This document shows positions 2,723 to 22,953 of a stretch of 27,124 nt of DNA, piece after piece. Numbering within the stretch: position 1 is the first letter of the stretch; the number at the start of each line of letters is the position of its first letter. Both the position numbers and the translations under genes were made by a program. The notes under the pieces are model-generated. The model was given only the letters and a program-made list of their open reading frames with translations. It was not told where the DNA came from and made no database searches. Source of the stretch: a virus. The stretch is from IMG/VR virus record IMGVR_UViG_3300020418_000037, positions 1-27,124 of that record; one strand, given 5' to 3'.

Positions 2723-3171
2723 GCCTATTCGAAGACATAAAAGATCTTTCTGGAGGAAAACCACACGGTAATGTGTGGTGGAGAAATCAGCTGTTCTGGG
2801 CTCTCGAAGGTGCTGACGGTCCTATACCAACTACTGCTGTTACATTTACATATAGAGCAGAGTATGGAGAAAAGATGAGGTTTTGGGATAAATATCCTAT
2901 GGTATATATTTTAGGGGAAAGTGGTCAGCACTTTTGGGGTGCAAATGTACACTATCTCCAACCAGCAGCAAGGAGTGCTGGTTTTAGTGTAGCAGCACCT
3001 CCCCAAACAATACATAAATACCTACGTAGTAATGTAATCAGTCCTCTAAAGAAGATCCCAGAGTCTGAATATGATGATATAGGTTTACTTCCAACTGAAC
3101 AATGGATCTCCACTATCAATGGAGTTCAAGTACCTATCCCAAGTGCAATAGTGTATAAAAATTACCTCTAA
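2719..3171 (+). CDS. Conserved-looking 150-aa virion-region protein, function unknown
   Basis: This 150-aa protein overlaps gp4 by four bases (ATGA) and the next gene by one base (TAATG), so it is embedded in the gp4-gp54 operon. It has no signal peptide or membrane segment. A central block around residues 40-80 reads as an aromatic-rich motif: RFWDKYPMVYILG, then FWGANVHYLQP. I have a general memory of marine T4-like phage proteins with the pattern DKFPL...G-(I/L/V)-N-(L/F/V)-HYL-P, but I cannot name the family. Its place between head-completion and tube-initiator genes suggests a neck, tail or baseplate role. That is inference only. Confidence 0.8.
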   Translation: MSLFEDIKDLSGGKPHGNVWWRNQLFWALEGADGPIPTTAVTFTYRAEYGEKMRFWDKYPMVYILGESGQHFWGANVHYLQPAARSAGFSVAAPPQTIHKYLRSNVISPLKKIPESEYDDIGLLPTEQWISTINGVQVPIPSAIVYKNYL

Positions 3172-3890
3172 TGGCAACACCAAATTCATTTACAGTTTTT
3201 AAAGATATCACAGGCAACGGATATAATGAGCCAACGTTGGCAAATTTATACTCTGTTGAGTTTGGTTTACCTGCTATCATAGGTCATTTACCTGGTTTTG
3301 AAGTGGATGTACAGAGTTGGTATAATCATATGAATTATTTTGCTGACGCTGTAAGTATACCTTCACGAAACATCACTACAGGAGACATCAAGAACGTAGG
3401 AATTGGTAGGAAATATGCTACAGGACAGACAGAGAATCAGTTAACTATAAGTTTTATGTTGACAAAAAGTTCTTGGCACAGGAACTTCTTTGAAAAATGG
3501 ATGCAGAAGATAGCACCAGACTCTGAGAATAGAGTTGGTTTCTATGATGATTATACGACTGATATATATGTTAGAAAGTGGGAACGTGGTTCCAACTATC
3601 TGAATCACGTCAAACAAGGTGGGACAGATTACTTTTCAAGAATGAACAAAGCTGTTGGTATCTATCAATTCGCTAAATGTTTCCCAGTTAATATGGGTGG
3701 ACTAGAATTTAGTAACGATGGTGGCGGTGTCTTGAAGATGAATATGTTGTTCAACTATGAGAGATATAGATTCACAACCAAAGTTCAGAAACCTAAAGAC
3801 TGGACTGAGGATAAAGTTATAACAGAGAATTTAGATGTTGCACAAGCGTTAGGGCTTGGAACTGATACAAACACTCAGTTTGGCATCTAA
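3171..3890 (+). CDS. 54: gp54-like baseplate tail tube initiator (tube-fold protein)
   Basis: This 239-aa protein looks like a tail-tube-fold protein of the gp54/gp19 group. gp54 forms the last ring of the hub from which tube polymerisation begins. Supporting features are an early NLYSVEFGLPAIIG segment typical of tube-like beta proteins, a central ITTGDIKNVGIGRKYATGQ loop, an LTISFMLTKS strand followed by FFEKWMQKI, and a late block ending in FNYERYRF. T4 gp54 is longer (320 aa), so this would be a compact version. It could instead be another tube-like protein, but its position beside gp48, gp4 and gp26 favours gp54. The ATG overlaps the previous stop by one base. Confidence 0.62.
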   Translation: MATPNSFTVFKDITGNGYNEPTLANLYSVEFGLPAIIGHLPGFEVDVQSWYNHMNYFADAVSIPSRNITTGDIKNVGIGRKYATGQTENQLTISFMLTKSSWHRNFFEKWMQKIAPDSENRVGFYDDYTTDIYVRKWERGSNYLNHVKQGGTDYFSRMNKAVGIYQFAKCFPVNMGGLEFSNDGGGVLKMNMLFNYERYRFTTKVQKPKDWTEDKVITENLDVAQALGLGTDTNTQFGI

Positions 3891-3920: not shown

Positions 3921-4625
3921 ATGCCTTTACCAACCCTTAGCATTCCTGATTACGAATGCGTACTTCCATTTGGACAGAAAGTAACTTATCGACCCTTCCT
4001 AGTTCGTGAAGAGAAATTGCTCTATATGGCAATGGAGACTCAGAATCAGAAGGAAATGATTAAAGCGGTGAAAGAGATCATCAAGAACTGTACTAATGTC
4101 AAAAACGTTAACACACTAACAACATTTGATATTGAATATCTCTTCTTGAAGATTCGTGGTAAGTCTGTTGGAGAAGTAAGTGAGTTTAAAATCACTTGCC
4201 CTGATGATGAAAAGACTACTGTTGATGTGGAAGTCAACCTAGATGATGTAGAGATCCAAATCCCAAAAGATCACTCCAATAAGATTAAACTAAATGATGA
4301 AATTACTTTGACGATGAAGTATCCTTCATTAGATTCTTTCGTTAAGAATAATCTAACTGATAATCCTGGCATCGATGATGTGTTCAAACTAGCAGCAGAT
4401 TGTACTGATACTATCGCTGAAGGTGATGAACTACACGAAGCAAAAGATTACAAGAAAGCAGAACTAATTGCATTCTTTGAAGGTATGAACTCCAAACAGT
4501 TTGGTGATGTTCAGAAATTCTTTGAGACTATGCCTAAGTTATCTCACGAGATCGAGGTGTTCAATCCAAAGACTGAAGTTAAGAGCACTGTTACATTGGA
4601 AGGACTAGCAGCTTTTTTCGAATAG
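3921..4625 (+). CDS. 26: gp26-like baseplate hub/assembly protein
   Basis: This 234-aa protein fits T4 gp26 (208 aa), a hub-assembly protein. The N-terminus LPTLSIPDYECVLPFGQKVTYRPFLVREEK, with LYMAMET and a later LFLKIRGKSVGE stretch, is the characteristic pattern. The C-terminal third is helical (FFEGMNSKQFGDVQKFFETMP). The last codons GCT TTT TTC GAA TAG contain a T_TTT_TTC slippery heptamer in the correct frame, which would place ribosomes in the gp51 frame. It follows the tube-initiator gene and precedes the tape-measure-like genes, the position of tail assembly chaperones in other phages. The start is ATG at 3921, with no clear Shine-Dalgarno sequence, 36 bases after a late-promoter-like site. 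Confidence 0.8.
   Translation: MPLPTLSIPDYECVLPFGQKVTYRPFLVREEKLLYMAMETQNQKEMIKAVKEIIKNCTNVKNVNTLTTFDIEYLFLKIRGKSVGEVSEFKITCPDDEKTTVDVEVNLDDVEIQIPKDHSNKIKLNDEITLTMKYPSLDSFVKNNLTDNPGIDDVFKLAADCTDTIAEGDELHEAKDYKKAELIAFFEGMNSKQFGDVQKFFETMPKLSHEIEVFNPKTEVKSTVTLEGLAAFFE
4598..4619 (+). promoter_or_regulatory. Putative -1 ribosomal frameshift site linking gp26 to gp51
   Basis: Bases 4613-4619 read TTTTTTC, split by the gp26 frame as GC(T TTT TTC), an exact X_XXY_YYZ slippery heptamer. Slipping back one base continues at CGA (4619-4621) in the open gp51 frame, avoiding the gp26 stop two codons later. Eight bases upstream is GGAAGGA (4598-4604), a Shine-Dalgarno-like sequence with no suitable start codon at normal distance; such sequences stimulate -1 shifts at the dnaX site. 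I see no strong hairpin downstream. The product would be about 299 residues. Confidence 0.6.
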
Positions 4626-4819
4626 CCCTAGCTCACGACTCTCTATTGAACTTGTATGAGGTTAATTTTGCCCTTATGCAACACCACAAGTACAGTCTAA
4701 CTGAACTTGAGAATATGATGCCTTGGGAAAGAGATGTGTATGTGAACTTGTTAATCAGGTATCTTCGAGAAGAAGAAGCGAGACAGAAACAAGCACAGGG
4801 CACACAGACCAACTTATAG
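4619..4819 (+). CDS. 51: gp51-like hub assembly catalyst, probably made as a gp26 fusion
   Basis: The frame open from CGA at 4619 to TAG at 4817-4819 encodes 66 residues with the gp51-like core LAHDSLLNLYEVNFALMQHH, then YSLTELENMMPWERDV, then a charged helix ending in EEEARQKQAQ. T4 gp51 helps hub assembly and is not in the finished virion. The conserved-looking part begins before any ATG: in-frame candidates are a TTG at 4646 without a Shine-Dalgarno sequence and an ATG at 4676, which would remove the first 19 residues (GAGG lies 14 bases upstream of it). The -1 slip at 4613-4619 is therefore the more economical way to make it. The pattern of an acidic or Arg/Glu-rich helix after an M-P-W-x-R motif resembles C-terminal extensions of tail chaperones. 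The stop abuts the next ATG. Confidence 0.65.
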   Translation, partial: RIALAHDSLLNLYEVNFALMQHHKYSLTELENMMPWERDVYVNLLIRYLREEEARQKQAQGTQTNL

Positions 4820-7141
4820 ATGGCAGCTTTAAAGATCAGATCCTTTTTACCCGCGAAAACCACTGGTGATATTCGCACTGATCCTGCAGCCGCAATGACA
4901 ACCTCTATTAACCGTCTTGGGTTTGTTGTAGAGGATATTGGACATATCATCGCTAAGATGCATATGGATAAGTTGCAGTGGTTAGATGATCAGAAAGATG
5001 CAAGGAAATTAGCGAAAGATCAAGAAAGGGAATCAAAAATAGAGAAAGATGTAGAGAAAGAGGTAGAAGTAGAAGATAAAAAGGCAGGAGGTGTGCAGAG
5101 GAAGACTGGTGGTTTCTTACAGAGACTACTTGCACCCTTTATGTGGATTGGGACGAAGTTACTGACATTCTTTGCGTTGAATTGGATGGCAGATCCAAAG
5201 AACGGAAAGTTTATTAAGACAGTCCTACCGTGGATAGGTAAATGGTTAGGGACATTCTGGAACGTATTATCTACTGGTGTTAATTGGATATTAGAAGCAT
5301 TTGGTGAAAAATCGCCTGTAATGGGAGCATTGAAGATATTTGGTGGTATTGCTGCACTCTTCGCAGCAGACAGAATCTTAAGACCTTGGAAGTTGATTGG
5401 TGATGTCAATAAACTTAGAAAATTAGTTAGTAATGATGCCAATAAGAATCAGCAGACTAACCAGAGTCAGCAGATGACCAAAAGGCAGATTGCCAAGCAA
5501 AGACTGAAGAATATTAATCAGATTAAAGCTAAAAACAAGAGGATTGCCAAACTCAGAAGAATGAGGAGAATGGGTAAGGTGAAGATGGGTAGATTTGTGA
5601 AAGGTGGTGGTTTATCTGCATTGGCTGGTGTTGCATCTTTTGCTGGTAGACTCAGTGCAGGTGATAGTGTACAGAAAGCAGCAGGTGGTGGTATAGGTGC
5701 AGCAGTCGGAGGTGTTGCTATGACTGCTTTGTTAACACCTATACTCGGACCTTTCGCACCATTGGTAGGAAATCTGCTGGGTGGATTTATTGGAGATAAG
5801 ATAGGTGCATTCATCGGTGATGCCATAACTCCTATCATAGCTCCCATAAAAGACTATTTTGTGAACATATGGTGGCCAGCTATGAAGGCATTCTTCACGC
5901 CTTTAGCTACCACGATCGGGGAATATATGGAAGTTGCTATCCCTGTGGTGAAGATGGTTTGGACGAAAATACAACCATTCTTGTCTGAAGGATTGAAAAA
6001 TGTTGGTAAATTCTTGACCGAAGGACCTGTTGGAAAAGCAATTCAAGCATTGATCTGGTTGGTAAAAACAGGTGCGTGGATCTTAGGTGGACTGGTGAAT
6101 GGTATAGCCAAGGTTGTCGGTGGATCCCTTAACACGTACAACCGTGTATTTGGTGATGAAGAGACGAAAGCTGATGCTCAACTGGAAAATGAAAACTATG
6201 ACATTAAGAATTTAAACGAGCAGTTAGCAACTCTGAAAAAGAACAAAGAGAAGAAGGGTGGTGGAAAGAGATCAGTCTGGTTTGGTGTTGATGGTGTCAT
6301 ACGTACAAGTAATGGTGCACCAGGTATGCATATAGGAAATGGTCACGGTCATCCTTTTGGTTCAACCATTGACGAAAAAATCAAGCACTGGGAAGAGGTT
6401 TTGATACCCCACGCTAAACAGAAGGCAGCAGAAGCTGCACAAGCTGTGAAAGATCTTGAAAATTCTGGTGGAAATGTAGAAGCATTAACTACATTTACTG
6501 ATAAAGAACTTACAAGAGGTGATCACGTAGTTACATCTCCAGCTTTGGTTGAGAGATGGGGTAAGATTCACAAGGGTGTTGATATTGCTACAGATATAGG
6601 TGAAAAACTTTACACATTTATGGATGCAGTTGTAGATCAAGTCGGTACAGAAGGAGCCACAAAAGGATATGGTAATTATATCGCATTTACCACTAAGGAC
6701 GGTATAGGACAGTTCTATGCACATATGAATAAGATGTCAACGTTGAAAGATGGACAGAAGATAAAGAAAGGTACACAGGTGGGTGAAGCAGGTAACAGTG
6801 GTGCATCAACAGGACCTCACCTTCACTGGGAGACTGCTACTAACCCTGCTGATGTTGGTTATGGAGGTCCGAGCATCTTTGACCCATTGACAAAATATGG
6901 CAAAGAATCACCATTCTCAGGTAAGTTAGAACCAGTTTCTGATTACATTGTTGGAGGAACAGGTGGTGCTGAGAATCTAAATAAAGAGTTAGTGCAACGT
7001 TCTGAAGCTGAGTCCTCAGCTGAGTTCCGAGGTGGTACCACAGAGACAATGTACATCGTACAACCTGTGTTACGTGACATTGTTCAACAGAACAGTGGTG
7101 ACAAACTCGTGGCAGTTTCCAGATACGGAGATGATATCTAA
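4820..7141 (+). CDS. Tape-measure-like protein with M23 peptidase domain
   Basis: This 773-aa protein is probably a tail tape measure or hub-interior protein that also digests peptidoglycan. Residues about 50-95 are a charged coiled-coil-like helix; 100-185 contain repeated Trp/aromatic hydrophobic segments; 190-245 are Lys/Arg/Gln-rich; 250-410 are Gly/Ala-rich hydrophobic stretches typical of tape measures. A C-terminal LysM-free M23 (LytM) domain follows at about 560-700, with the zinc and catalytic motifs H584-x3-D588, H635 (FYAHM) and H667-x-H669 (HLHWE) all present. It lies just after gp26/gp51, the usual tape-measure position, and its N-terminal half aligns by eye with the next gene (LLTFFALNWM against LITFAALDWL). 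T4 has gp29 in this role; homology to gp29 is not evident. M23 activity is a strong call, tape-measure role moderate. Confidence 0.75.
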   Translation: MAALKIRSFLPAKTTGDIRTDPAAAMTTSINRLGFVVEDIGHIIAKMHMDKLQWLDDQKDARKLAKDQERESKIEKDVEKEVEVEDKKAGGVQRKTGGFLQRLLAPFMWIGTKLLTFFALNWMADPKNGKFIKTVLPWIGKWLGTFWNVLSTGVNWILEAFGEKSPVMGALKIFGGIAALFAADRILRPWKLIGDVNKLRKLVSNDANKNQQTNQSQQMTKRQIAKQRLKNINQIKAKNKRIAKLRRMRRMGKVKMGRFVKGGGLSALAGVASFAGRLSAGDSVQKAAGGGIGAAVGGVAMTALLTPILGPFAPLVGNLLGGFIGDKIGAFIGDAITPIIAPIKDYFVNIWWPAMKAFFTPLATTIGEYMEVAIPVVKMVWTKIQPFLSEGLKNVGKFLTEGPVGKAIQALIWLVKTGAWILGGLVNGIAKVVGGSLNTYNRVFGDEETKADAQLENENYDIKNLNEQLATLKKNKEKKGGGKRSVWFGVDGVIRTSNGAPGMHIGNGHGHPFGSTIDEKIKHWEEVLIPHAKQKAAEAAQAVKDLENSGGNVEALTTFTDKELTRGDHVVTSPALVERWGKIHKGVDIATDIGEKLYTFMDAVVDQVGTEGATKGYGNYIAFTTKDGIGQFYAHMNKMSTLKDGQKIKKGTQVGEAGNSGASTGPHLHWETATNPADVGYGGPSIFDPLTKYGKESPFSGKLEPVSDYIVGGTGGAENLNKELVQRSEAESSAEFRGGTTETMYIVQPVLRDIVQQNSGDKLVAVSRYGDDI

Positions 7142-9171
7142 TGGCTACAGTAAGATTCTATAAATACGTAACTCCACCGAAGGGTGAGACTAAGATTACT
7201 GTTGGTAATAAGACTGTTGCTGGCACAAGTTTTTCTACGACAATTAAATCACTTAATTCATTAGGAGCAACAGTTAACAGTATTGCTGCTGCATTAAAAG
7301 GTCTAAAAACTCAACAATTAAAACAGGCAAAAGACGCTGCTGATCGTGCAAAGTTATTGGCAGATCAGAATAGAGAAGCAAATATAGAAGCACAAGACCC
7401 AGATAATGCTTCGGGTAACGTTGTAAAGAATATTGCTAAAGGTGGATTAGGATTTCTAGGTAATTTGCTGAAATTCTTTAAAACACTTATTACGTTTGCT
7501 GCATTAGATTGGTTGTCAAAACCAGAGAATAGAGAAAGTATCATACGAACGTTTAAACGTCTGAAAGCGATGTTTATATGGATCAGAGATACGATGGGTA
7601 AGTTGTATAACTGGATCACAACTAACTGGGATAGAGCATTTGGTAAAGATAAGACCTTGATGGAAAGGATCCAAGGTGCAGGTAGTTTGTTGGCAGGTGC
7701 TGCTATTGCTCTTGCAGGTCTATCATTCCTTACAAATCCACTTGGTACCATAAAAGCATTTGTGGGTATCTTGAAGATGGTCGGTGGCGGTATTATGAAC
7801 CTAGGAAAAGTTCTAGGTGGTACTGGGCTTGGTAGAGCTGCTATAGGTATCGGTATTGGTATAGGTGCATATCAGAATGTAATGAATGATGAGAACTTTG
7901 AAGGTCCTGAAGAAGATAGGAAAGCTGCTGCTATTGGAGCTGGTGTTGGTGGTACAGGTGGAGCAATGCTCGGAGGACAAATAGGTGCTCAGTTCCTAGG
8001 TCCTGTTGGTGGTATGGTTGGATCTGCATTAGGTGGTTTCTTAGGACAGAAAGCAGGTAAGTTCTTCGGACCTATTGCTAAGAAGTGGTTCGAAAAATTA
8101 AAAGAGATATTTGATACGATGAAAGAATGGTTGGATAAGTTCTTAGCACCACTAAAAGATGCATTTACAAATTTATTTAAAGCACTCGGACCTGTAATAC
8201 AGACTATTGTTGATAAGATAAAACCAATGATGCCTATGATTGAGAAAATTATGGGATTCTTAGGTAAGATAGTCTTCGGACCTCTGATACTGATGATGAA
8301 AGGTATCACGGCTCTGTTGAAGAAGATACCTATTGATGCTGAACTGGATAAGATTAAGACAGATTCTGATGACGCACTAAACCAATTAGATGATCCTAAT
8401 AGTCAACCAGAATTAAGTAAGGGTGGATTTATTCCTAGGAGAACTATTGCTCCTATGAAGTTCCCTGAGTTTAGTAAGGGTGGTTGGATCACAGGACCTC
8501 AGTCAGGTTATCCTGTATCACTTGATGGTAAAGGTGTAGATTTTATAGGTCACGGTACAGAGTATGTTGCAAAGAGATCTGCTGGTGGATTTGTTATTCC
8601 TGTAGATACACCACATACACGTAGAGATCCTGGTTTAACGAGTCGAAGAGCAGCACAAGCTCAGAGAGCTGGTTTTAAATTACCTGGTCGCTCTGCTGGT
8701 GGTAAGATAAATGCAAAACCAACATATAATGTAAGCATACCTAAGACATATCGTTTCAGAGAATATTCTCAAGGTGGTTTCTTCAGTGATATGAAGACTA
8801 GGTTCACGAATAAGATGGATGATATATCCAGTTCTGTTCTGAATATGGCAGAAAATCATCCAAATGAGAATGTTCGTGACTTGGTAAATAACGTAGTGAT
8901 ACCTATAGCAAACAAGACAGGAAACTCTCTTTCTAACGCATTCTCCAGAGTTAAAGACATAGCTGGTAGAGCTGGTCAGAACAATTTGGAAGGTTCAGTT
9001 AGAACTATGGTTGCACAAGCAATGGTAGTACCTCCAACTGTCACAGGTGGTGGCGGTGGGAATGAAGTTCCTGTTATACAGGACATTCCAAGAAATCCAT
9101 CTTCAGAGTTTCTTATCAGTAGATTTGGTAGGTCTGCTGAAGAGAGTAGTCCAGTAAGTAACTTCTTATGA
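7141..9171 (+). CDS. Second tape-measure-like protein, paralogue of the preceding gene
   Basis: This 676-aa protein overlaps the preceding stop by one base and the following start by four. Its early part is a helical Ala/Lys-rich segment (residues 45-85), followed by a hydrophobic aromatic block (about 95-155) that mirrors the previous gene, and then long Gly/Ala-rich stretches (about 180-310). From residue 420 onward it has a Gly/Arg-rich tail with repeated (S/A)-x-GG-(F/W/K) motifs such as LSKGGFIPRR, FSKGGWITGP, RSAGGFVIP and YSQGGFFS. It has no peptidase motif. A role as a second tape-measure or hub-core protein is inferred from composition, order and the paralogy. Repeated KGGF-type motifs also occur in the tails of many tape-measure proteins. 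Confidence 0.65.
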   Translation: MATVRFYKYVTPPKGETKITVGNKTVAGTSFSTTIKSLNSLGATVNSIAAALKGLKTQQLKQAKDAADRAKLLADQNREANIEAQDPDNASGNVVKNIAKGGLGFLGNLLKFFKTLITFAALDWLSKPENRESIIRTFKRLKAMFIWIRDTMGKLYNWITTNWDRAFGKDKTLMERIQGAGSLLAGAAIALAGLSFLTNPLGTIKAFVGILKMVGGGIMNLGKVLGGTGLGRAAIGIGIGIGAYQNVMNDENFEGPEEDRKAAAIGAGVGGTGGAMLGGQIGAQFLGPVGGMVGSALGGFLGQKAGKFFGPIAKKWFEKLKEIFDTMKEWLDKFLAPLKDAFTNLFKALGPVIQTIVDKIKPMMPMIEKIMGFLGKIVFGPLILMMKGITALLKKIPIDAELDKIKTDSDDALNQLDDPNSQPELSKGGFIPRRTIAPMKFPEFSKGGWITGPQSGYPVSLDGKGVDFIGHGTEYVAKRSAGGFVIPVDTPHTRRDPGLTSRRAAQAQRAGFKLPGRSAGGKINAKPTYNVSIPKTYRFREYSQGGFFSDMKTRFTNKMDDISSSVLNMAENHPNENVRDLVNNVVIPIANKTGNSLSNAFSRVKDIAGRAGQNNLEGSVRTMVAQAMVVPPTVTGGGGGNEVPVIQDIPRNPSSEFLISRFGRSAEESSPVSNFL

Positions 9172-10982: not shown

Positions 10983-11543
10983 ATGGCAGTACAAAGTTTT
11001 GTCGCAGGTGGCAAAATCGATGAGGATATCGTCGATGGTGTTATGGAGTTTTGGAATGATTGTACTTACTTAGATAAAGTACCAGGTGAAAGTAATCACG
11101 GTGCTAATAAGATTATCAAAGAATCTACAGATATGGCAGTTCCTTCCTTTATAAAGGATCCTAGGATTGTCAAGTATTTGGATGCAGTACAAGGTGCAAT
11201 AACTTTATATGTGGATCAATATCCTTGGGCTTCTATGTCTGAGTTGGAAATCATTGAACCATTTAATATACAGCATTACAAACCAGGACAGGCATTTACA
11301 CAACCACATACAGAAAGATGTTCATCTGATAAGACAACATCGTTTAGACACCTTGTTTGGATGACATATCTAAACACAGTGGAAGAAGGAGGAGAAACCC
11401 AATGGGTTCACCAAGATCTAGCAATTAAACCAGAGAAAGGTGTAACGTTATTGTGGCCGTGTGATTGGACACACGTTCATCACGGAGTAGTTGCTCCTAA
11501 AGAGGATAAATATATAGTAACAGGATGGATATCTTACGCTTGA
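10983..11543 (+). CDS. 2OG-Fe(II) oxygenase
   Basis: This 186-aa protein belongs to the 2-oxoglutarate/Fe(II)-dependent oxygenase superfamily (prolyl 4-hydroxylase-like). The iron ligands are H109-T-E111 in QPHTER and a distal His, most likely H166 of HVHHG; K176 in the EDKYIVTGW segment is the candidate 2OG-binding residue. The familiar LVWMTYLNTVEEGGETQW block lies between them. The usual HxD appears as HxE. Substrate unknown: phage members could modify proteins, DNA or small molecules. It is placed between the CP12 insert and gp5. T4-like cyanophages often carry several such genes. Confidence 0.87.
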   Translation: MAVQSFVAGGKIDEDIVDGVMEFWNDCTYLDKVPGESNHGANKIIKESTDMAVPSFIKDPRIVKYLDAVQGAITLYVDQYPWASMSELEIIEPFNIQHYKPGQAFTQPHTERCSSDKTTSFRHLVWMTYLNTVEEGGETQWVHQDLAIKPEKGVTLLWPCDWTHVHHGVVAPKEDKYIVTGWISYA

Positions 11544-19377: not shown

Positions 19378-22300
19378 ATGGCACTAACCCGTCTAAAGAA
19401 TATTATCACGTCGAGGACTGGTCGTATTATATACGTCAACCCCGACGACTTTGACGCATCTGATGCATATGATAACCGAGGTAACTCGGCACTACGTCCA
19501 TTCAAGACATTGCAACGAGCATTTCTTGAAGTGGCAAGGTTCTCTTATCGTGTTGGTTTGAGTAATGACGAATTTGATGCTTTCAGTATATACCTATATC
19601 CTTCAGAGTATGTTTTAGATAATAGACCAGGTACAAACTTATATTCAGAGATCACACCATTTGACGAGAATACAAATTTTGATCTCACTTCTCCTAACAA
19701 TATCCTATACAAATTCAACTCCGTAAACGGTGGAATCATCGTTCCAAGGGGTTGTTCTGTTGTTGGGTCTGACCTTAGAAGAACTAAGATCATTCCTAAG
19801 TACGTACCATATCCTACACTACAGGCATCACTAGGAATTACATCAGCTAACGAACCTGCAACAACTGCTATCTTTAGACTTACTGGTGGTACATATTTCT
19901 GGCAGATGTCATTTTTTGACGGTGACAACAATGGAGTTTACTACCGTCCTGACGTAGTTGATACCATTGCACCTAACTTCTCACACCATAAGATTACTTG
20001 TTTTGAATATGCTAATAATGATGACCTAGATTTATACTATCAAAAGATTTCAAAGGCATACGCTACAATTCCTGATACCTCTGGTACTATCGCTCAAGAC
20101 CAATTACAGGCAAGAGTTGAAGAGAACAGAATTGTCGGTCCGATCTCCGATGAATTCAGAGTTTCTCAGATTATCAGAAATGGACAAACCGCCACAGCTT
20201 TCACAGTTGATATCCAAGATAACCCAAGCAACCACGGATTCTCCGTGGGTGTCGCTGTTAATATTTCTGGGGTTACTGGTCCTACTGAGACTGACTCTAA
20301 CCTCTATAATGGCTCCTTCTTGGTAACGTCAGCACAAGGTAACCAGTTCACATATCAGATGTCAGCAGAACCTAGTGGTAACGCTATTGGTTCAAACGTT
20401 CTTGTTAAGGTTGAGATTGATACAGTTGACTCAGCATCACCTTACGTGTTTAACAACTCCTTACGTTCTGTATGGGGAATCAACGGTATGCACGCTGATG
20501 GTTCACAAGCAACTGGTTTCAAATCAATGGTTGTTGCTCAGTTCACTGGTATCTCACTACAGAAAGACGATAGAGCATTTGTTTTATATAACCCATCAAC
20601 AGGTAACTACGAAGCACAGGCAGCAGGTTCAGGTGCACACATTAATGGACTATGTAAATATAGAAAAGGATGGAGACACAGACATATCTTTGCATCAAAC
20701 GACGCTTTCATTCAGGTCGTTTCGGTGTTCGCTGTTGGATTTGGTGATCACTTCTTTAGTAAATCAGGTGGTGACCTTTCAATTACTAACTCTAACTCAA
20801 ACTTTGGTAACACATCACTTAGATCAACAGGATTTAAAGCAGCAGCATTTACCAAGGATAAAGCAGGTCAGTTAACACATATCATTCCACCTAAGAGTAT
20901 TGAAGACGTACCAGAGATCTCTATCAACTGGGTTACATTTGATATTTCTAAGATCAGAGCAGCAGCAGACCCAACTAAGTTATATCTCTATGGTTATACA
21001 AATGAAAATGCAAAACCACCTTCAAAGATTCAAGGTTACACTGTAGGTGCTCGTAGAGATTCACCCACATTACCTGACAAGATTAACGTGTTGTTGATCG
21101 CTTCAGGTGCACAGCAACCCACAACTCACACTGCAAAGATAGATCCTTCAGGACCTGACGTTACAGGTACATCACCTGGTGACGATGCTTCACCTATTAA
21201 GTTTGATCCTAACCAGTCTAACTGGTATCTACAGGTTGATTCAAACCAGAACGACATCTATACCACACTGATCGCTAACTCACAATATCAGAACTTAGGA
21301 TTCACACCTACATCATTCATCAGACGAGTACCAGATGCAAGAGACCTTAAGGATAGAATTTACAGATTTAGATATGTGTTGGACAAGGATGCGTTCCCGA
21401 TTCCTAGAGAACCCATTACTGGTTTCGTATTACAACCTAGATCTTCAGAGACTAACTCACCTGCATATGACAAGACATACTACATCTATGAAGTAGAAAT
21501 ATTCCAGACATTTGAACGTGGTGTTAAAGATGGTATCTATTATCTTTCAATACTTAATGCTTCAGTAGCACCTGCAACTTCAAACTTTGATGACTTTGCG
21601 TTCTCACAGTATGCAGTGGACATTTATCCTACATTTGACAGAGACAACCCAGTTGCTGACCCTGCTGCTGCGGTATCTATTGCAGACAATGACATCCTTG
21701 GTAAGGTTACCACAACTGACGGTGCACAGCCCCAAGCGAACGAAGATACTAAACTTTCTATTACAAGAGAGACTGCACAGTTCTTCCTATTAGAACAGGA
21801 AAACAACTTAGGATACAATACTACGAGTAACACATTGAACAGTGTGGTAGTTACTGCAAGACTTGGAGATGAAGAGGAAAGAAAAGTTGCACTTAAATTG
21901 AACGCTGATAACTCTGTTGCACCACTGTTAGTTGAGTTACGAAGGTACTCAATTCTCAGAGCATCAGGTCATACGTTTGAATATCTTGGTTTCGGACCTG
22001 GTAACTACTCGACTGCATTCCCATCCACACAGGTGGAAGTGTTATCACCCACACAGGTTCGACTGTCACAGTCACTTAAAGAATCTGCGGGTGTTGCATA
22101 TTATTCTGGTGTTAACAGTGATGGTGAACTATACGTTGGTAACCAGGTTATTAACCCGATTACTGGTCAGATCACCAACGAGGATATTGCACAGTTAAAC
22201 GTTGTTGGTGAAGAGGGAACCACGATCCAAACATTCAGTGAAGTCGTTCTGACTGATAAACTGACTGTTATTGGTGGTGCATCTAACCAGTTAGAATCTG

Positions 22301-22953
22301 TGTTCTCAGGTCCTGTTACTTTCCAAAAGCGAATCAATGCTCAGGAAAATATTCAGACATTGAAGTTAACATATGCCAACGATGATGGAACTGTACTAAA
22401 GCAGTCGTTCCTAGCAGAAGATGATGGCACAGGTCAACCAGATATTGATTCGTCATTAGCATTTAATGATGGCGATATTATCTATAACATTGATTGGCAA
22501 GCTGGTGATTCATTAGGATGGATTTATGATACAGGTATCTGGTATAAGTTTGGTTTGACAGATACTACACCTATTACTGCACGTAGGTTCTCAGGTGTTA
22601 CTAACTATGGTATTGGTATGGCTCCAGACGCATCCAACAGGATGAAGATTGCTGGTAATACTTACATTAACGGTAACTTAGATGTTACTGGTAGGTATGG
22701 TTGCCAAGACAAGTATACACTTGCAACTGGTATTGCTAACAACAATAACGGTGTTATCTACAATGGTAATGGATCTACAACTTCCTTTGCTATTTCACCA
22801 GGTCATACAAGTTATTCTGTATTGGTATTTAATAATGGTGTTGCACAGATTCCTGGTGTTGACTATCAGGTATCAGGTAACGCAGTTGACTTCTCTATTA
22901 GTACACCACCTGCAACAGGGTCGGTTATTCACATAAGAGAACAGGTTATCTAA
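19378..22953 (+). CDS. Large virion structural/fibre protein (1191 aa)
   Basis: This is the largest gene of the window. The N-terminal part (1-90) has RTGRIIYVNPDDFDASD and NSALRPFKTLQRAFLEVARFSYRVG, followed by the beta-helix-like segments ILYKFNSVNGGIIVPRGCSVVGSDLRRTKI; the pattern suggests a pectin-lyase-type beta helix. The middle is mixed beta. The C-terminus repeats a known fibre ending: SYSVLVFNNGVAQIPGVDYQ, then VIHIREQVI. Cyanomyoviruses encode such large structural proteins near their fibre genes. It may be a baseplate-periphery or proximal fibre protein, or a spike with enzyme activity. The fibre/structural call is good, the exact role is not. Confidence 0.75.
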   Translation: MALTRLKNIITSRTGRIIYVNPDDFDASDAYDNRGNSALRPFKTLQRAFLEVARFSYRVGLSNDEFDAFSIYLYPSEYVLDNRPGTNLYSEITPFDENTNFDLTSPNNILYKFNSVNGGIIVPRGCSVVGSDLRRTKIIPKYVPYPTLQASLGITSANEPATTAIFRLTGGTYFWQMSFFDGDNNGVYYRPDVVDTIAPNFSHHKITCFEYANNDDLDLYYQKISKAYATIPDTSGTIAQDQLQARVEENRIVGPISDEFRVSQIIRNGQTATAFTVDIQDNPSNHGFSVGVAVNISGVTGPTETDSNLYNGSFLVTSAQGNQFTYQMSAEPSGNAIGSNVLVKVEIDTVDSASPYVFNNSLRSVWGINGMHADGSQATGFKSMVVAQFTGISLQKDDRAFVLYNPSTGNYEAQAAGSGAHINGLCKYRKGWRHRHIFASNDAFIQVVSVFAVGFGDHFFSKSGGDLSITNSNSNFGNTSLRSTGFKAAAFTKDKAGQLTHIIPPKSIEDVPEISINWVTFDISKIRAAADPTKLYLYGYTNENAKPPSKIQGYTVGARRDSPTLPDKINVLLIASGAQQPTTHTAKIDPSGPDVTGTSPGDDASPIKFDPNQSNWYLQVDSNQNDIYTTLIANSQYQNLGFTPTSFIRRVPDARDLKDRIYRFRYVLDKDAFPIPREPITGFVLQPRSSETNSPAYDKTYYIYEVEIFQTFERGVKDGIYYLSILNASVAPATSNFDDFAFSQYAVDIYPTFDRDNPVADPAAAVSIADNDILGKVTTTDGAQPQANEDTKLSITRETAQFFLLEQENNLGYNTTSNTLNSVVVTARLGDEEERKVALKLNADNSVAPLLVELRRYSILRASGHTFEYLGFGPGNYSTAFPSTQVEVLSPTQVRLSQSLKESAGVAYYSGVNSDGELYVGNQVINPITGQITNEDIAQLNVVGEEGTTIQTFSEVVLTDKLTVIGGASNQLESVFSGPVTFQKRINAQENIQTLKLTYANDDGTVLKQSFLAEDDGTGQPDIDSSLAFNDGDIIYNIDWQAGDSLGWIYDTGIWYKFGLTDTTPITARRFSGVTNYGIGMAPDASNRMKIAGNTYINGNLDVTGRYGCQDKYTLATGIANNNNGVIYNGNGSTTSFAISPGHTSYSVLVFNNGVAQIPGVDYQVSGNAVDFSISTPPATGSVIHIREQVI

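Follow-up and report, generated by a model that had tools for sequence, protein, structure and literature searches.

A conserved slippery heptamer suggests that gp26 and gp26-gp51 of T4-like cyanophages are the short and long products of a single tail assembly chaperone gene

In phage lambda, a gene located between those for the tail tube and the tape measure protein gives a short protein, gpG, and a long fusion, gpGT, by -1 slippage near its stop codon. The lambda slippery heptamer is GGGAAAG. Frameshifts of this type are classical for tail assembly chaperones (Xu, Hendrix and Duda 2004, as cited in several later papers), and a chaperone frameshift motif, GTTTTT, is described for other phage families, the Vandenendeviridae and Andersonviridae, for example in Pseudomonas phage Adele (PMC12846349). 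Vladimirov, Gautam and Davidson (2022, Virology 566:9-15) are reported to have identified the tail assembly chaperone genes of T4-like phages. Two later papers attribute to that study polyT slippery sites in the TAC-N genes of T4-like phages (PMC12846349) and the finding that some T4-like phages carry a separate short gene and a long fused gene (PMC10885494). A preliminary description of the DNA analyzed here, which knew of no published account for gp26/gp51, needs correction on this point. In public records, such as those of S-PM2, S-RSM4, and R10Z, gp51 is annotated as a separate gene, and the fusion was annotated as one CDS in none of the phage records examined.

We analyzed a 27,124-base stretch of viral DNA, referred to as the window. 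Judged from sequence comparisons, its gp26 and "gp51" are very probably one gene that makes two proteins through a -1 slip, a pair resembling the lambda chaperones. As in lambda, the gene is flanked by a tail-tube-like gene and tape-measure-like genes, and its products are predicted to be missing from the virion. Compared to the lambda system, the slippery heptamer is T_TTT_TTC and gp26 is longer (234 aa), extending ~150 residues past its chaperone-like N-terminal region. The pair in the window is a strongly conserved new example of a mechanism already familiar from many phages.

Slip site and reading frames in the window

The features of the locus are as follows.
3921-4625, + strand: gp26, 234 aa, putative short tail assembly chaperone, TAC-N (open reading frame, profiles, predicted fold)
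4613-4619, + strand: T_TTT_TTC slippery heptamer in -1 register (register, conservation)
4623-4625, + strand: TAG stop of gp26 in the 0 frame (open reading frame)
4619-4819, + strand: gp51 as a -1 extension, 66 codons plus stop (phrog_634, dN/dS, three-helix model)

The 3' end of gp26 reads GCA GCT TTT TTC GAA TAG. The heptamer at 4613-4619 is in X_XXY_YYZ register with gp26 and its TTT codon begins 9 nt before the stop, in agreement with the preliminary description. The -1 frame is open over 4583-4816, and after a slip it would be read as CGA ATA GCC CTA and onward to the TAG at 4817-4819. The open frame of 66 codons and the fusion of roughly 299 residues described earlier were both recovered, with 66 codons at 4619-4816 and a predicted long chaperone (TAC-NC) of 233 + 66 = 299 aa. 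Within the extension, ATG first appears at codon 20 (4676), preceded only by TTG at codons 10 (4646) and 12, so the claim that the first 19 residues have no good start also holds.

TTTTTTC occurs as a single copy on the + strand of the window, where gp26 is the sole open reading frame of at least 100 aa with an X_XXY_YYZ motif no more than five codons from its stop. A TTTAAAG at ~20833 followed by a long -1 extension was rejected, being part of a spurious open reading frame within a large gene (19378-22953).

In the proposed mechanism, the majority of ribosomes would halt at the gp26 TAG and yield the 234-aa short chaperone, and a minority would slip by -1 on T_TTT_TTC and read 66 more codons to yield the 299-aa long chaperone. 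Extrapolating from lambda gpG/gpGT, coating of the tape measure protein would fall to the short form and recruitment of tail tube subunits to the extra C-terminal part of the long form, with neither form remaining in the finished virion. Conservation and homology are seen directly in the sequences; the slippage, its rate, and the role in assembly are our inference.

Conservation of the slip site and of the -1 frame

The gp26 protein was matched in 701 phage records, and 273 loci containing gp26 and its stop, the window included, formed our sample of relatives. T_TTT_TT followed by C, T, G, or A was found 6-12 nt upstream of the gp26 stop in 264 of the 273 loci, across phage families; relatives lacking a heptamer were what the preliminary description had named as evidence against the frameshift. 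The heptamer-bearing phages included the Kyanoviridae, Caulobacter phage Cr30, Sinorhizobium phage phiN3, Agrobacterium phage OLIVR5, Rhizobium phage P10VF, Vibrio phages R10Z and D486, Aeromonas phages Aeh1 and P19, Stenotrophomonas phage Yut2, and Pseudoalteromonas phage XG4.

We grouped 263 of the 264 heptamer loci into 53 clusters at 80% gp26 identity and 16 clusters at 50%. Given the codon usage of each gene, finding both the preceding T and TTT throughout has a log10 probability of -30.6 for the 53 clusters and -12.8 for the 16 clusters, values that serve only as guides since the clusters were taken as independent. Among loci paired at 75-95% identity, both slippery Phe codons were identical in 529 of 529 pairs; at the 40 positions upstream of the Phe pair, codons for identical amino acids mostly matched in 30-80% of these pairs. 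The first slippery codon was TTT in all frameshift-type loci. The slippery codons are conserved beyond protein constraint.

The heptamer was missing in nine loci, those of T4, Merlin, NP4, RB43, IME-SM1 (counted twice, as two copies of one record), CBA120, 207E48.1, and K469. In T4, Merlin, and NP4, gp26 and gp51 are divergent genes, and gp26 ends in Phe-Phe written TTC TTT with no heptamer. These phages act as a natural control, as they indicate that the protein sequence alone does not impose the heptamer. In RB43 (locus L111, 2001-3294), genes of the gp51 and gp26 types are adjacent on the same strand, while the T4 pair is divergent.

Stenotrophomonas phage IME-SM1 (Menderavirus; loci L088, 2690-2705, and L094) has five T at the site, compared to six in its close relatives L093 and Yut2. 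A homopolymer error or a mutation probably accounts for the missing T. The 280-aa gp26 of IME-SM1 was considered as a natural in-frame fusion and rejected, because its reading frame, one T short, enters an unrelated frame.

In the Ackermannviridae-type phages CBA120, 207E48.1, and K469, an extension-like open reading frame follows gp26 in the -1 frame without the canonical heptamer (L107, 3200-3402; L108, 2651-2848; L089, 2606-2803). Vibrio phages K469 and 207E48.1 have TAATGATG overlaps there, and the long form may thus arise differently.

Purifying selection on the -1 frame is strong, even in codons before any likely start. The dN/dS was 0.073 for extension codons 4-9, situated between the gp26 stop and the earliest likely start, 0.045 for codons 10-45, 0.109 beyond codon 45, and 0.142 for the gp26 body. 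Start codons are often absent from the same region. Within the first 15 extension codons, ATG is absent from 29 of the 53 clusters, 14 of which lack GTG and TTG as well, so that most relatives, like the window, offer no good ATG for gp51, the opposite of what the preliminary description had named as evidence against a fusion. A stand-alone gp51 would hardly account for the selection on early codons and the missing starts.

Some stand-alone gp51 may be made, since in the remaining 24 clusters an ATG falls within the first 15 codons of the extension. Slippage to the fusion might be accompanied by low-level internal initiation that yields a free extension. This combination is consistent with several lineages in which an ATG stands at extension codons 3-5, right after the gp26 stop, but the candidate starts are not conserved between lineages and the window has TTG alone before codon 20, so we consider it unlikely.

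Protein families, gene order, and the T4 proteins

The gp26 protein of the window matched the PF12322 family (T4_baseplate) with E = 1e-68 (231.7 bits, curated cutoff 24.5) and phrog_150 with E = 6.6e-76, and the gp51 extension matched phrog_634 with E = 1.2e-28. A PDB sequence search with gp26 returned nothing significant. Residues 1-83 of the predicted gp26 structure (pLDDT 86.8) aligned with the HK97 tail assembly chaperone 2ob9 at Z 7.4 over 82 residues. YqbN (3klu) followed at Z 6.8 and a small protein (5ir0) at 5.4, and the next entry was at 2.1. HK97 gp13 (2ob9) and YqbN were therefore the best structural matches to the modeled residues 1-85; both are ~105-120 aa long compared to 234 aa for gp26, and they align with its N-terminal third at 8-11% identity. 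The 2ob9 match covers only that third, with Z below 8, and its Foldseek E-value of 0.72 makes the assignment of a tail assembly chaperone-like fold to the gp26 N-terminus suggestive. The extension was modeled as three helices.

Profile matches of the neighboring genes agreed with the order of tube, chaperone, and tape measure given in the preliminary description.
3171-3890, + strand: upstream tail-tube-like gene (phrog_45 tail tube, E = 5.5e-43)
4820-7141, + strand: downstream M23-peptidase gene, possibly of the tape measure type (PF01551, E = 4e-21; phrog_167 and other tape measure families)
7141-9171, + strand: second tape-measure-like gene (phrog_1200, annotated endolysin, E = 8e-78; PHROGs 167, 794, and 305, all tape measure, matched more weakly)

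Further downstream, 10983-11540 (+ strand) encodes a 2OG-Fe(II) oxygenase-like protein (phrog_61, E = 1.1e-33), for which the second match was a DNA endonuclease family.

T4 gp51 (249 aa) matched the gp26 family PF12322 over residues 1-201 (E = 3.9e-52) and covered positions 13-280 of 282 in phrog_150. Its residues 147-246 matched phrog_634, the cyanophage gp51 family, and the extension profile aligned by hhalign with residues 207-244 at its C-terminus (E = 1.3e-5). The gp26 family of the window matched T4 gp26 with E = 1.2e-15, and T4 gp51 and T4 gp26 showed a weak mutual match. From these family matches, T4 gp51 is a full-length long form, consisting of a gp26 homologue and the extension. 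T4 therefore has a short and a long gene, which are divergent and lack a slippery site, where the window has one gene with a slip site and a proposed frameshift. The proposal that gp26 and gp51 form a frameshift pair thus stands for the heptamer-bearing phages of several families and does not extend to T4 itself.

Taken with the conservation of the site, the selection on the -1 frame, and the T4 gp51 homology, the best match of the predicted gp26 N-terminal fold to the HK97 chaperone supports the lambda G/GT-like pair that had been suggested before. Most likely, by this structural prediction and by analogy, gp26 and gp26-gp51 are the short and long tail assembly chaperones. The pair might instead be translated as proposed and function in baseplate hub assembly. 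The hub assembly chaperones listed for T4 include gp26 and gp51, and T4 gp51 is reported to be required for assembly and missing from the particle (PMC3004832). The predicted chaperone-like fold, the gene order, and the short/long architecture argue against a hub role in place of a chaperone role, as does the naming of these genes as TACs in later literature (PMC12846349, PMC10885494), and we regard it as improbable. The two roles may be compatible, because the tape measure protein is a component of the T4 hub (PMC3004832).

A small gp51 protein made on its own, from a start at TTG 4646 or ATG 4676 or by reinitiation past the gp26 stop, with the heptamer a by-product of a conserved Phe-Phe, would fit the annotation in the S-PM2, S-RSM4, and R10Z records, the ATG-bearing clusters, and the overlaps in K469 and 207E48.1, but it is very improbable given the low dN/dS at codons 4-9, which in many members come before a start is likely, the invariant TTT in frameshift-type loci versus TTC TTT in T4, Merlin, and NP4, and a T4 gp51 that matches the full fusion with no stand-alone extension.

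Candidate RNA stimulators and implications

The fusion of gp26 and gp51 by slippage could be assisted by RNA elements, for which we obtained the following candidates.
4598-4604, + strand: GGAAGGA, Shine-Dalgarno-like, 8 nt upstream of the heptamer (no support for a role in the window)
4652-4681, + strand: predicted RNA hairpin within the extension, candidate stimulator (folding against a synonymous null)
4625-4639, + strand: 5' arm of a long-range stem (clade duplex z; weak in the window)
4718-4735, + strand: 3' arm of the same stem (clade duplex z; weak in the window)

The Shine-Dalgarno-like GGAAGGA lies where the preliminary description had placed it, 8 nt upstream of the heptamer, but its strength in the window is only that expected from codon usage (-5.5 versus a synonymous-codon null mean of -5.6 kcal/mol). 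Family-wide, the sequence was stronger than its null (-6.0 versus -4.8; p = 3e-5, uncorrected for relatedness).

RNA folding was compared to a null of resampled synonymous codons. Outside the clade of the window (106 representatives), the 36-45 nt past the heptamer were predicted to fold with extra stability (mean z ~-3.1). The stems differ by lineage in register and sequence (for example, in L083, L237, L082, and relatives), with few compensatory changes within lineages. These lineage-specific stem-loops after the slip site are possibly new. The proximal stem is absent in the window's clade (mean z ~+1.2, 16 representatives). In this clade, a 60-nt block at extension codons 10-29 was stable, with a mean z of -3.7 over the 16 members and, in the window (4646-4705), a z of -2.8 (p = 0.01). 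For a long-range stem starting ~6 nt after the heptamer, 11 of the 16 members had a duplex z between about -2 and -4.6, compared to +0.18 in the window; this stem is only tentative, because a search across the clade found no compensatory change in it. RNAalifold gave no convincing consensus for the clade. An Rfam scan of the window detected no known frameshift element; the sole match at the gathering level was a full-length manA RNA motif (RF01745, 14004-14195, + strand, 181 bits).

The RNA stem and Shine-Dalgarno-like signals are thus tentative. Slippage in the window may be inefficient, since the proximal stem is absent, the Shine-Dalgarno-like sequence is at expectation, and the long-range stem is weak. 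The frameshift signal may be a modular and evolving device, with a near-fixed heptamer, a stimulator that has been repeatedly rebuilt, and loss of the device in T4-type phages, a reading we offer tentatively and rate at somewhat short of an even chance. Within it, the window's clade would have swapped the proximal stem for a long-range stem over an internal hairpin, and T4-type phages would have replaced the device by separate short and long genes.

If the frameshift reading of gp26 and gp51 is true, the annotation of the two genes would be corrected in hundreds of records of T4-like cyanophages and other T4-like phages, with one gene for two tail assembly chaperones replacing the "baseplate hub" and "hub assembly catalyst" labels. 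The lineages would supply natural variants of a frameshift stimulator for comparison, and a single protein family would rely on a frameshift in some lineages and on two genes in others to produce its short and long forms.
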